From Leclercia adecarboxylata (lineage in GTDB: Bacteria; Pseudomonadota; Gammaproteobacteria; Enterobacterales; Enterobacteriaceae), in assembly GCA_901472455.1 (NCBI GenBank), contig LR590464.1, forward strand, positions 4,278,001-4,342,000: DNA of 64,000 bases, written 5' to 3'. The first letter of the stretch is position 1, and every line of letters starts with the position of its first letter. Shown in pieces: positions 45,207 through 48,395 of this stretch. Made by a program: the position numbers and the translations under genes. A model generated the notes under the pieces. The model made no database searches. It was not told where the DNA came from and saw only the letters and a program-made list of their open reading frames with translations.

Positions 45207-45254
45207 TTGCTGTGAGTACTCTTTTTGTTCGTACAGCCAACACAACATAAGAAA

Positions 45255-46721
45255 ATGACAGAGATCACTGATTCAACTTCGCTTGCAACGGCAGGAAAAG
45301 CTCCCGACGGGGAGATCAAATGGGTCCGTAACGCAGCGGATGTCACCCAACTGGTCAATGAAGGTTCACAGGGCCGGGCCAATGCCCGCATCGTCATCGG
45401 CATTGCGCTGGGCGGTATCTTTCTGGATGCCTACGACCTGGGGGCGCTGGCGTTCGGCATCAAAGACATTACCCGCGAATTTAACCTCACGCCTGCCGGT
45501 ACCGGCATGGTGGCCTCGGCAATCACCTTCGGTGCCATTGTCGGGGCGCTGATTGGCGGCTACCTGACGGATAAAATTGGTCGTTACCGGGTCTTTATGG
45601 CCGACATGGTCTTCTTTGTGGTCGCGGCTATCGCCTGTGCGTTTGCCCCAAACGAGTACGTGCTGGCCGGGGCGCGCTTTGTCATGGGGCTGGGGGTGGG
45701 GATCGATCTTCCTGTGGCGATGGCCTTCTTAAGTGAGTTCGCCAGGCTGAAAGGCCCCGGCAACAAAGCCGCCAGCGTCGCGATGTGGTGTCCCACCTGG
45801 TATGCCGCCATCAGCATCTCATATCTGCTGGTGCTCTTCTTTTATGCCGTGCTGCCAGAAACGCACAGCGACTGGCTGTGGCGGATTATTCTTGGCTTCG
45901 GGGCGATCCCCGCGCTGGTGATTATCGCGATCCGCAGCAAGTATATGAGTGAGTCACCGGTATGGGCGGCGAATCAGGGCAACCTGAAAGAGGCTGCATC
46001 CATTCTGCGCAAGGCTTACAACATTAATGCCCACGTGCCGCAGGAGGCACTCAACCAGCCCGCGCCGGTGGTGAATAAAGCCAGCTGGAGTAACTATTTG
46101 AATCTGTTCCGCGGGGTCTATCTGCGCCGCACTACGCTGGCCACGCTGCTGTCGATTGTGTCGTCCTTCGCCTATAACGCGGTGGCCTTTGGCCTGCCGG
46201 TGATTATCTCCAGCTTCTTTGTGCAGTCGATGCTGACCACCATTCTGATCTCGCTGGCCCTGAACTTGCTGTTCGCGTTTGTCGGTGGTCTGCTGGCGGT
46301 GCGGCTGGTTCCGCGCTTTGGCGCATGGCGGATGTCGCTGGCGGGTTATGCCTGTCAGCTGACCGCCCTGCTGGGGCTGGCGATTATTGGTCGCCCGGAA
46401 GGCGTTGCGGAAGGGGTTACGGCAGTGGCAATGCTGGCGCTGTTCCTGTTCGGCCAGGGCTTTGGGCCGGGGGCACATACCATGGCGTTTGCTTCGCTCA
46501 GCTACCCGACCTCGCTGCGCGGTGTCGGCGTGGGGCTGAACCAGACGCTGATGCGCAGCAGCTCGACGCTGTCACTGTTTATGTTCCCGCTGCTGGTGGC
46601 CTCGATGGATACCGCTGTTTTCTGGGTCATCGCCCTTGCGCCGCTGATTGGGTTGGTTTCGCTGCTGGCGATCCGCTGGGAGCCATCCGGGTATGATATT
46701 GATGCTGAGGATTATCGGTAG
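45255..46721 (+). CDS. MFS transporter, substrate unknown
   Basis: 488 aa from ATG 45255, twelve membrane segments after a ~45-residue cytoplasmic N-terminus. Carries FLDAYDLGALAFG in TM1 and the MFS loop motif GGYLTDKIGRYR, as in metabolite:H+ and aromatic-acid-type symporters. Middle loop has ESPVWAANQGNLKEA. C-terminus acidic (DIDAEDYR). It is not adjacent to obvious catabolic genes: plsY is upstream, the inverted-repeat element and urease downstream. Weak Shine-Dalgarno (AAGAAA). Confidence 0.88.
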   Translation: MTEITDSTSLATAGKAPDGEIKWVRNAADVTQLVNEGSQGRANARIVIGIALGGIFLDAYDLGALAFGIKDITREFNLTPAGTGMVASAITFGAIVGALIGGYLTDKIGRYRVFMADMVFFVVAAIACAFAPNEYVLAGARFVMGLGVGIDLPVAMAFLSEFARLKGPGNKAASVAMWCPTWYAAISISYLLVLFFYAVLPETHSDWLWRIILGFGAIPALVIIAIRSKYMSESPVWAANQGNLKEAASILRKAYNINAHVPQEALNQPAPVVNKASWSNYLNLFRGVYLRRTTLATLLSIVSSFAYNAVAFGLPVIISSFFVQSMLTTILISLALNLLFAFVGGLLAVRLVPRFGAWRMSLAGYACQLTALLGLAIIGRPEGVAEGVTAVAMLALFLFGQGFGPGAHTMAFASLSYPTSLRGVGVGLNQTLMRSSSTLSLFMFPLLVASMDTAVFWVIALAPLIGLVSLLAIRWEPSGYDIDAEDYR

Positions 46722-46766
46722 GTTACCCTTTTAAATCGGGAAGTATTTATTTTAAAGGAGTGGAAT

Positions 46767-47393
46767 CGTTCCGTTCACTTTCACTCCTCTGCTTTATGTG
46801 TAATCCGCTGCGGTGAACGTGCCAGGGGGGCTCGCCGCCTCCCCCCTGGCTACCCCGGCTCCCGGCAAAGAAAATCGCCGCTTCGCGGAATATTCGCCCC
46901 CATCCCAGGGGCTCACCCCTACGGGGCCAGCGCAAGCGCTGTTCAAAATTGCTCCCGGCAATTTTCTCTTCGGCTTATTCCCTCCGGCTTTCGGGTCGGG
47001 CACCAGCCTGCATCCCTGCAGGCTATGCCCTCTCGGCGCATTCATGCGCCTCGCCCCGGCCTACAGGAAACGCTTCGGCGATTTTCAGCCGGACCAGCCC
47101 CCTCCAGCCTCTCAGTCGCCTGAATGTGGCTCCGGTGTTGCCCCCCGCTGAAATCGGCGAACCGGAGACCGGATGACAAGGGCTGGACGCCAGGGATGGC
47201 GGCCAGAGGCGAATCGAGACAGGATGTCGAGTTGAGCCGACCGCAGGCAGCAGGTCGGGAGGTGAGCGCAGTGCGAAGCACCGATTTCGTCGCGGGGCCG
47301 CGGGGATTGCAAAGGGGGCGGCGGCAAAGCCCCCTTTGCACGTTCACCGCAGCGGGGTGTACATAAAGCAGAAGAGTCATAGTGAACGGAACC
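46767..47393. mobile_element. ~630-bp non-coding element with ~65-bp terminal inverted repeats
   Basis: Left end (46767-46836) and right end (47323-47393) are inverted copies over about 65-70 bases with few mismatches; both hold TTCCGTTCACT, CTCTGCTTTATGT / TTCTGCTTTATGT, CCGCTGCGGTGAACGTGC and a G run. The inside is GC-rich and full of small hairpins (AGCCTGC-ATCC-GCAGGCT, GCGCAAGCGC). Overlapping readings exist on both strands, as palindromes allow, but none has a ribosome-binding site or family likeness. Best read as a MITE-like non-autonomous element or a large structured RNA. Confidence 0.6.
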
Positions 47394-47470
47394 TTCCCCC
47401 TCCCCTAAAAACTCCCCAAAATACTTCCCCCTCACCCAAAAATCCTCCCCCTCCCCAAAATCCTCCAGCC
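47391..47470 (+). repeat. C-rich, strand-biased imperfect repeat before ureD
   Basis: CTTCCCCCTCCCCTAAAAAC, TCCCCAAAATA, CTTCCCCCTCACCCAAAAAT, CCTCCCCCTCCCCAAAAT: about 2.5 imperfect copies of a ~30-bp unit of C blocks and A blocks, almost without G. Directly outside the right inverted repeat and ~100 bp before ureD. Confidence 0.6.
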
Positions 47471-47567: not shown

Positions 47568-48395
47568 ATGTCAGCAACTCAGATGGTGGATAAAACAGTC
47601 AAAGGCTGGCAGGCATCGCTTGCTTTGCAGTTTTGTCACACCCCTGAAAAAACCCTCCTTCACTCTGCCCGCCATGTTGGGCCGCTCACCGTACAACGCC
47701 CGTTCTATCCCGAAGAGGAAACCTGCCACCTCTACCTGCTCCATCCGCCGGGTGGCATTGTCGGCGGGGATGAACTGACGATCGACGTCCATCTTGCAGC
47801 CGGCAGCCACGCGCTCATCACCATGCCCGGCGCCAGTAAGTTCTATCGCAGCAACGGCGCGCTGGCGCGGCTCGATCAGCACTTCACCCTGGACGAGCAC
47901 GCAATCCTGGAGTGGCTACCGCAGGACACCATTTTCTTTCCGGGTGCCAATGCCGCGCTGCGCTCGGTGTTCCATTTGCAGCGCAGCAGTACCCTGCTGG
48001 CCTGGGAGCTGTTTTGCCTCGGCCGCCCGGTGATCAACGAATCCTTTAGCCATGGGCACATTGAGAGTCGCCTTGAGGTCTGGATCGAGGGCGAGCCGCT
48101 GCTGATCGAGCGCCAGCACCTGGCCGATGGCGATCTGACGCCCGTGGCGGAACACCCGTGGGTCGGCACCCTGCTCTTTTACCCTGCAACCGAACCGCTG
48201 CTGGATACGGCCCGTGAAGCACTGGCCCCGCTGGAGCACTTCGCGGGTGCCACCCTCAACGACGGCTTGCTGTCGGTCCGTTTTCTGGCCCATGACAACC
48301 TGATTTGCCAGCAGGCAATGCGCGAGATCTGGCAGCGCCTGCGCCCGCAACTCACCGCCAAAGCCCCCTGCTCGCCCCGAATCTGGCACACCTGA
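47568..48395 (+). CDS. ureD: Urease accessory protein UreD
   Basis: 275 aa; K. aerogenes UreD is 270. First apoenzyme-binding chaperone for nickel insertion. Shared core [58 protein letters not shown]. First gene of ureDABCEJFG, in which gaps are 9-11 bp or overlaps, so one transcript is expected. Start ATG 47568 lacks a strong Shine-Dalgarno; an internal start is possible. Confidence 0.95.

Follow-up and report, generated by a model that had tools for sequence, protein, structure and literature searches.

TwoAYGGAY (RF01731) has been tabulated as a probable RNA (PMC2864571) and, in the available part of another report, is proposed to be a CsrA-binding RNA (PMC4333381). The sequence CANGGANG is given as the Rsm-binding motif in the accessible text of a third source (PMC6849547). 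In Rfam, TwoAYGGAY belongs to the same clan (CL00106) as PrrB/RsmZ.

Among dispersed DNA repeats, REPIN/BIME and ERIC sequences are intergenic, palindromic, and multi-copy in enterobacteria, as is the element described here. The record of IS4 from Escherichia coli K-12 gives the ends TAATGCCGATCAGTTAAGG and TAATGCCAGTCAGTTAAGC, with a 12-bp duplication (by eye). ISRm22, a member of the IS4 family, occurs in nine copies that lie in REP palindromes, according to the available portion of its report (PMC1525189). Neither IS4 nor CsrA occurs in the accessible part of a review of prokaryotic MITEs (PMC10969869). Our search of the open-access literature found no description of the element family presented below, an absence that is not proof, and a preference of the IS4 family for terminator-like hairpins did not stand out there. 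The available text on asmA/yegH names yegH as a miRNA target and was set aside as irrelevant to the element.

Here, we compare these systems with an element from Leclercia adecarboxylata. The window is a 64,000-nucleotide stretch of this species, and its own genome is 5.06 Mb in a single contig.

RESULTS

An inverted-repeat element upstream of ureD

Positions 46767-47393 of the window are flanked by an MFS transporter gene (45225-46721) and by ureD (47568-48395, UreD), both identified with Pfam and both on the plus strand. A previous sequence-only reading had placed an inverted-repeat element here, and its coordinates proved correct to within a few bases. The inverted arms of this copy (46750-46847 and 47313-47410) are 98 nt long, 78% complementary, and 465 nt apart, and they match each other at E 1.4e-21 in a blastn search of the own genome. 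The predicted RNA fold greatly exceeds shuffled sequence in stability, with a z score of -15.5 on the plus strand and -11.2 on the minus strand (20 dinucleotide shuffles each). None of the eight ORFs of at least 60 aa that overlap the element has a Pfam match at E 0.1. The earlier view that no ORF here is credible therefore holds, and we ruled out a protein-coding reading of 46767-47393.

In a search based on UreC, the nearest named urease neighbor was Enterobacteriaceae bacterium RIT691 (90% UreC identity), and the 80 loci kept included one enterobacterial neighbor. Between the element and ureD, positions 47390-47466 hold a C-rich short tandem repeat that is CTCCCCAAAATCC-like. The parts of the window copy are listed in Table 1.

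Table 1. Parts of the element copy in the window
Feature	Positions	Strand	Sequence or detail	Basis
Left terminal arm	46767-46821	minus	GTTCCGTTCAC (46768-46778) ... GTGAACG (46813-46819), stem with ~34-nt variable loop	direct reading
G-rich hairpin adjoining left unit	46821-46850	minus	GCCAGGGGGG / CCCCCCTGGC	direct reading; equivalent in other units
Structured unit A (predicted)	46860-47093	minus	5' end at 47093; split by ~81-bp insert	covariance model R2
Optional insert within unit A	46889-46969	minus		parts found alone elsewhere in own genome
Unit A hairpin 2	47006-47025	minus	loop GGGA	sequence; conserved GGA loop in A3
Unit A hairpin 1	47036-47051	minus	loop UGAA; GGA lost in window copy	sequence; alignment row L001:1621-1854
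Structured unit B (predicted)	47143-47298	plus	reads toward ureD	R2; some single-sequence folds have the unit A topology
Unit B hairpin 1	47183-47206	plus	CTGGACGCCAGGGATGGCGGCCAG; GGA at 47194-47196	sequence; inside sub-threshold TwoAYGGAY match
Unit B hairpin 2	47218-47228	plus	GACAGGATGTC; GGA at 47222-47224, 28 nt from first	sequence
C(GNA)G triloop hairpin of unit B	47271-47281	plus	GTGCGAAGCAC	GNA columns nearly invariant in A3
G-rich hairpin adjoining unit B	47308-47340	plus		inverted-repeat search
Right terminal arm, A-type	47340-47393	plus	ends GTGAACGGAAC (47382-47392)	92% identical to right arm at same locus in L220

A mirrored pair of homologous units

Units of the left half are referred to as A-type and those of the right half as B-type. 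A profile built from A-type units only matched 26 of 26 B-type units end to end (best E 2.2e-13); the E-values of the iterative profile follow three rounds in which A and B matches were mixed, and the A-only profile is the unmixed test. The covariance model R2, also built from A-type units only, scored B units at 30-63 bits. In the window, R2 gave 138 bits (E 2.4e-29) for unit A (L001 1621-1854, minus strand) and 56 bits (E 6.3e-11) for unit B (L001 1904-2059, plus strand). When sequences were folded singly, several A units and some B units shared a topology, and other B units differed in the middle. By these matches and predicted folds, the window element consists of two homologous ~155-nt structured units that have one fold and form an inverted, divergent pair. 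Because the two types are homologous, the element can be described as a single unit present in two inverted copies whose 5' ends face each other. From the 77 units found, 40 A-type and 26 B-type rows were used, and 11 duplicates or truncated units were left out.

The same arrangement was found elsewhere. Among 68 units at 42 chosen loci, neighbors within 700 bp of each other were oriented (-,+) in 22 cases, (+,-) in two, and (-,-) in two, and the spacers of the (-,+) pairs measured 37-350 bp. The search of the Enterobacteriaceae yielded a divergent pair at 15 of 29 loci; one of the 29 (L176) is from the window's own genus. We tested for a central promoter between the units and rejected this candidate, as 10 of 12 pair spacers held no promoter-like site. 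By eye, a G-rich hairpin and an arm of the form CGTTCAC-N~36-GTGAACGGAAC lie outside most of the units printed. The stem of this arm varies pairwise across units (GTTCGC/GCGAAC, GCGCTC/GAGCGC; seen by eye, not counted).

Many sister copies lack query positions 150-230 in the own-genome blastn search, and positions ~165-214 are matched alone at other places. The 81-bp insert at 46889-46969 is GC-rich. Stretches like it stand alone in the own genome, for example as three spaced copies near 339 kb, and are found as well in Proteus mirabilis and K. pneumoniae records. The insert has a weak, sub-threshold match to AaHKsRNA22 in Rfam.

Other arrangements of the units were also seen. By eye, the single A-type units at six loci (L018, L019, L022, L024, L027, and L030) have a different pair of flanks in common, one resembling CTCTCCCC..GGGGAGAGGGTTGGGGTGAGGGG and the opposite one resembling GAGTCGCTGTAAGTC, which would fit a second mobile form. 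At L017:1740-2337, four further partial tandem units (unit positions 1-72) lie beside a complete one, and a C4 antisense RNA lies just beyond them, as does a match to isrK below threshold. Outside the arms of L184 and L175, tandem AACGGAACNNTTCCAC-like repeats run on from the GTGAACGGAAC end.

Conservation of base pairing and hairpin loops

RNAalifold predicted only 15 pairs from a mixed alignment of A and B units (A1, 29 rows hand-picked for diversity), and the covariance model made from it (R1) was dropped for R2. In our opinion, R1 has so few pairs because helices of the two types are misplaced relative to each other by MAFFT. Alignment A2, a sequence-only alignment of 20 rows (19 distinct) that were likewise hand-picked for diversity, had double changes at 13 of 47 pairs versus 6.5 in shuffles, and 97.9% of its cells were paired versus 34-40% in slid controls. 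The larger alignment A3 consists of 68 units from 42 hand-chosen loci. It showed compensatory double changes at 46 of 47 pairs, with 94.2% of cells paired versus 71.5% (shuffled) and 33-42% (slid); because A3 was fitted to the covariance model, these pair counts lean toward structure. Judged by these paired changes, a conserved inverted fold is established at the level of the element family.

Six columns of A3 are invariant where occupied, four of which are inside the two GGA loops. Sixty-two of the 68 units have letters at both loops, and GGA is present in both loops in 58 of these 62. The spacing between the loops is 26-30 nt (mode, 28; 62 units). The full CANGGANG is found at loop 1 in 50/62 units and at loop 2 in 40/62. 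In the third hairpin of the unit, the loop is C(GNA)G in nearly all cases, and the GNA columns are nearly invariant. In the window copy, both GGA loops are kept in unit B and one is kept in unit A.

The sequence-only reading proposed that sequence rather than protein is kept at this locus. Its non-protein part stands; the conserved features are base pairing and loop sequence, not the sequence as a whole. Single-copy matches or frame-wise conservation would have spoken against that reading, and we found a multi-copy element conserved as base pairs.

The variable pairs also bear on which strand folds. On the strand carrying GGA, G-U cells numbered 72 versus 34 A-C cells, or 37 versus 12 when thinned to 29 units, and 500 shuffles gave ~1:1 (pair 1-157, with consensus U-G, was left out of the count). 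The alignments that were not fitted to the model gave 26 versus 8 variable cells for A-type units and 12 versus 3 for B-type units. This excess of G-U suggests that the strand carrying GGA is probably the strand that folds.

Relationship to TwoAYGGAY and CsrA-binding RNAs

A scan of the window element alone with Rfam returned nothing at gathering score. Below that score, unit B matches TwoAYGGAY at 47181-47242 with 32.2 bits, short of the 43 bits required for membership in RF01731. Among 18 loci searched, two matches inside units of two other genera pass the cut-off (L187:1047-1112, 53.2 bits; L191:1308-1373, 43.2 bits). The full model can be aligned to two E. coli copies at 31 bits, with E-values of 0.6-0.8 that are not significant alone. 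Two further Rfam scans of related sequences likewise gave TwoAYGGAY matches only under the cut-off. Because the window units score below the cut-off and two outside units score above it, we regard the window unit as a TwoAYGGAY relative and not as a filed member. Paired GGA hairpin loops within CANGGANG, the hallmark of a CsrA-binding RNA, are present in the units with the frequency given above (58/62 with both GGAs). With their spacing of ~28 nt, the paired loops are like a CsrA/RsmA dimer site.

Family size and spread

Blastn against the own genome returned 88 matches to the element in about 28 distinct places (counted by hand, excluding places where the optional insert alone is matched). 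Long copies are mostly 79-90% identical, with or without the 81-bp insert, and shorter single-unit copies are also present. Within the genus, 37 of 40 genomes (own genome included) match the element at E 1e-20. The multiple copies anticipated by the sequence-only reading are thus present both in the own genome and across the genus.

The window query finds matches in 4673 of 5426 complete E. coli genomes, all of them partial and none over 80% of the query. A query made from an E. coli copy, including flanking repeat sequence, matched 5375 of the 5426. The match is intergenic and without annotation in each of six E. coli stretches examined. Copies in E. coli lie at asmA/yegH, at yohP/dusC, and in the proX region. 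With R2, and at most 20 candidates scored per genome, matches were found in 40 of 148 genomes of the Enterobacteriaceae, representing 39 of 147 genera, and the other 108 genera gave no match. Across the order, with at most 10 candidates scored per genome, 16 of 295 genomes matched, three of them outside the family.

IS4-like ends, target duplications, and insertion sites

Ten copies in the own genome have both inverted TAATGCC..GGCATTA-like ends, like TAATGCCAGTCAGTTAA, with at most three mismatches. The outer end of the best-kept copies, TAATGCCAGTCAGTTAAGC, is identical to the right end of IS4 from E. coli K-12 across 19 bases. Target duplications score 7-13 at seven of the ten two-ended copies, whereas none of 90 mismatched flank pairs scores more than 6 (the best control score), and five of these seven duplications are perfect (11-13 bp). 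The duplication at L003 is weak (score, 4) and falls within the controls, and L002 and L008 have no recognizable duplication. The MITE or non-autonomous IS4-family element is defined by dispersed copies without a transposase gene, ends common to an autonomous IS, and an 11-13 bp target duplication. We found the first in the element, the second in the family and not in the window copy, and the third at 7/10 sister copies. On the evidence of these ends and duplications, mobility with IS4-like ends is established at the level of the element family.

These results qualify one claim of the sequence-only reading and bear out another. The ~65-bp terminal repeats that it described are real as inverted arms and are not the transposition ends, since the IS4-like ends of sister copies lie further out. 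Its suggestion of a mobile history agrees with a multi-copy element whose sister copies have IS4-like ends and target duplications. At the window copy, neither IS4-like ends nor a target duplication was seen, and no both-end place was found at this locus. Because this copy lacks the outer mobile ends, the duplication that the earlier reading had proposed to look for is demonstrable at sister copies and not here.

Insertion sites of the two-ended copies resemble terminators. When the ten empty sites were reconstructed, all scored at least 6 in a terminator scan (range, 6-16) and seven scored at least 10; the empty sites of L002 and L008 rest on an assumed 12-bp overlap. Among 2000 random 60-mers from the same loci, 25% scored at least 6 and 4% at least 10. 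The scan was positive at the near (entry) side in 0/20 cases and at the far (exit) side in 16/20, counts that are no more than suggestive, as 31% of random 60-mers exceed zero in this permissive scan. The genes flanking 24 of the about 28 own-genome places are convergent at 13, tandem at 11, and divergent at none, by a count that used hand-set extents and a crude ORF caller.

Of the 61 genomes searched in the genus, 7 contain relatives of the IS4-family transposase, several of which are broken or partial. Both IS4-like ends are present at five of seven loci examined, in the same kind of hairpin (by eye). The IS4-family elements at L253, L254, L256, L260, and L264 of the genus sit in terminator-like hairpins (by eye). 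The own genome has three DDE_Tnp_1 matches at 4.16-4.18 Mb and no IS4 transposase relative at E 1e-20, and present mobility of the element is putative for this latter reason.

The MFS-ureD locus across the genus

We found ureD in 54 of 61 genomes of the genus and examined 34 upstream stretches, two of which gave no ureD match. Element sequence is carried by eight of the 34. It lies opposite to the window orientation in L216, L217 (truncated), L218, L220, L225, and L243, and it is present in part only, in the window's orientation, in L244 and L222 (contig edge). Remnants of the element were found in three stretches (L223, L233, and, by eye, L215), nine have a short MFS-ureD gap (117-248 bp) without an element match, and 12 matched neither the element nor the end of the MFS gene. 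In L219, L215, L217, L224, and L236, the gap holds REP-like sequence (GCCGGGTGGCG..ACCCGGC; by eye). This sequence is joined to a truncated element copy in L215 and L217 (by eye).

The right arm of the window copy is closest to the same locus in L220, which is from another species (Table 1). Unit B matches two sequences at 95% identity, the unit at this locus in L220 and the own-genome copy L010; unit A is closest to the own-genome copy L011 (94%). We infer that the window locus is an old insertion that was later rearranged by recombination with a sister copy. The two arms are so alike because both are of one type (by eye), and such recombination would explain how they came to be so and why the terminal repeats look so good.

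DISCUSSION

We lean, at somewhat better than an even chance, toward a decayed non-autonomous IS4-type element (a large MITE) whose cargo is a divergent pair of RNA units, read through by host transcripts and serving as a putative CsrA module. The sequence-only reading had offered a MITE or a large structured RNA, and both halves appear to be true at once. Mobility and structure are well supported; transcription through the element and binding of CsrA we infer, as follows. An IS4 transposase acting in trans would move the element. Insertion into a terminator would break the near one and leave a weaker one at the far side; with such target sites, host transcripts would run through the element and end beyond its far side. 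Since the units mirror each other, a transcript entering from either side would always hold one sense unit, and this unit would offer one CsrA dimer two CANGGAYG-type hairpin loops ~28 nt apart. Loop sequence, pairing, and spacing suggest that the sense unit is probably presented to CsrA. The element would then act as a 3'-UTR module or sponge that binds CsrA. A transcript that crosses the window copy toward the urease genes would include unit B, ~270 nt before the ureD start.

A bolder form of this proposal is a transposable CsrA sponge, IS4-driven and terminator-inserting, whose mirrored units expose a putative CsrA-dimer site. Such a sponge would titrate CsrA and would put the transcripts joined by the element under CsrA control. 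We offer this form tentatively, as its chance falls a little short of even. The window copy itself counts against the preferred explanation in that it displays neither IS4-like ends nor a target duplication and its unit A has a lost GGA loop and the 81-bp insert.

The main rival is a role of the hairpins at the DNA level, which we consider unlikely. The GGA strand would fold as single-stranded DNA or a cruciform in replication or transposition, where a transposase or replication protein would recognize its hairpins as RAYTs recognize REP hairpins, and the CsrA-like loops would be coincidental. The C(GNA)G triloop, nearly invariant in the units, forms a very stable DNA mini-hairpin and is favored in single-stranded DNA too, so it fits a DNA role as well. 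A divergent mirrored pair would yield similar hairpins on either strand, 10/12 pair spacers lack a promoter-like site, and the G-U excess could also arise in folded single-stranded DNA. However, IS4-type transposition, with its target duplication, acts on double-stranded ends, and internal hairpins should be unneeded. The loops also fit the Rsm-binding consensus, in which the varying loop position is the free N.

Ranking below this is the improbable reading that the folds of a mobile element serve as generic 3'-end RNA structure (stability, exonuclease block, or attenuation), REP/BIME-like and without CsrA. The element does lie at gene 3' ends (0/24 between divergent genes), its folds are very stable, and REP-like sequence replaces it at this position in L219 and other relatives (by eye), but stability alone would not keep a GGA pair at 26-30 nt in 58/62 units while the stems are replaced. 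That the window copy is a decayed intergenic palindrome, functionless now in a family formerly active, is very improbable: the ends and one GGA loop are gone from this copy, and some species (L223 and L233) keep only remnants at the locus, but unit B retains both GGA loops and its 95% identity to the L220 same-locus unit and to L010, and compensatory change runs across the family.

If the CsrA-module explanation is true, mobile DNA distributes ready-made post-transcriptional regulatory sites, and terminator targeting would allow a promoterless element to be expressed in either orientation. The orphan Rfam family TwoAYGGAY would gain a carrier and a testable partner, CsrA. The explanation would also account for the unannotated repeat matched in part in 4673/5426 complete E. 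coli genomes.

Comparison with known systems sets the element between mobile DNA and regulatory RNA. It shares with IS4 (the E. coli K-12 insG element) the 19-bp outer end of its best-kept copies and target duplications of 11-13 bp. Unlike IS4, it has no transposase gene, its cargo consists of non-coding structured units, and for about 18 of its about 28 places in the own genome the search did not recover both ends. ISRm22 and other REP-targeting IS likewise place an IS4-family member in palindromes, but ISRm22 is autonomous in the available account, and the element targets terminator-like hairpins rather than REP (PMC1525189). By description, the element is set apart from REPIN/BIME and ERIC by its much larger size, IS4-like ends, and target duplications, and it differs from REP/RAYT elements in size and ends. 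On the RNA side, it resembles CsrB/CsrC/RsmZ-type sponge RNAs in having GGA loops in the CANGGANG consensus; in contrast to these, its unit has two conserved sites rather than many, no promoter was found, and it is a dispersed repeat. Like TwoAYGGAY (RF01731), the unit has two adjacent hairpins with AYGGAY-type loops, but here the motif lies within a larger unit, in a mirrored pair, on a mobile element.
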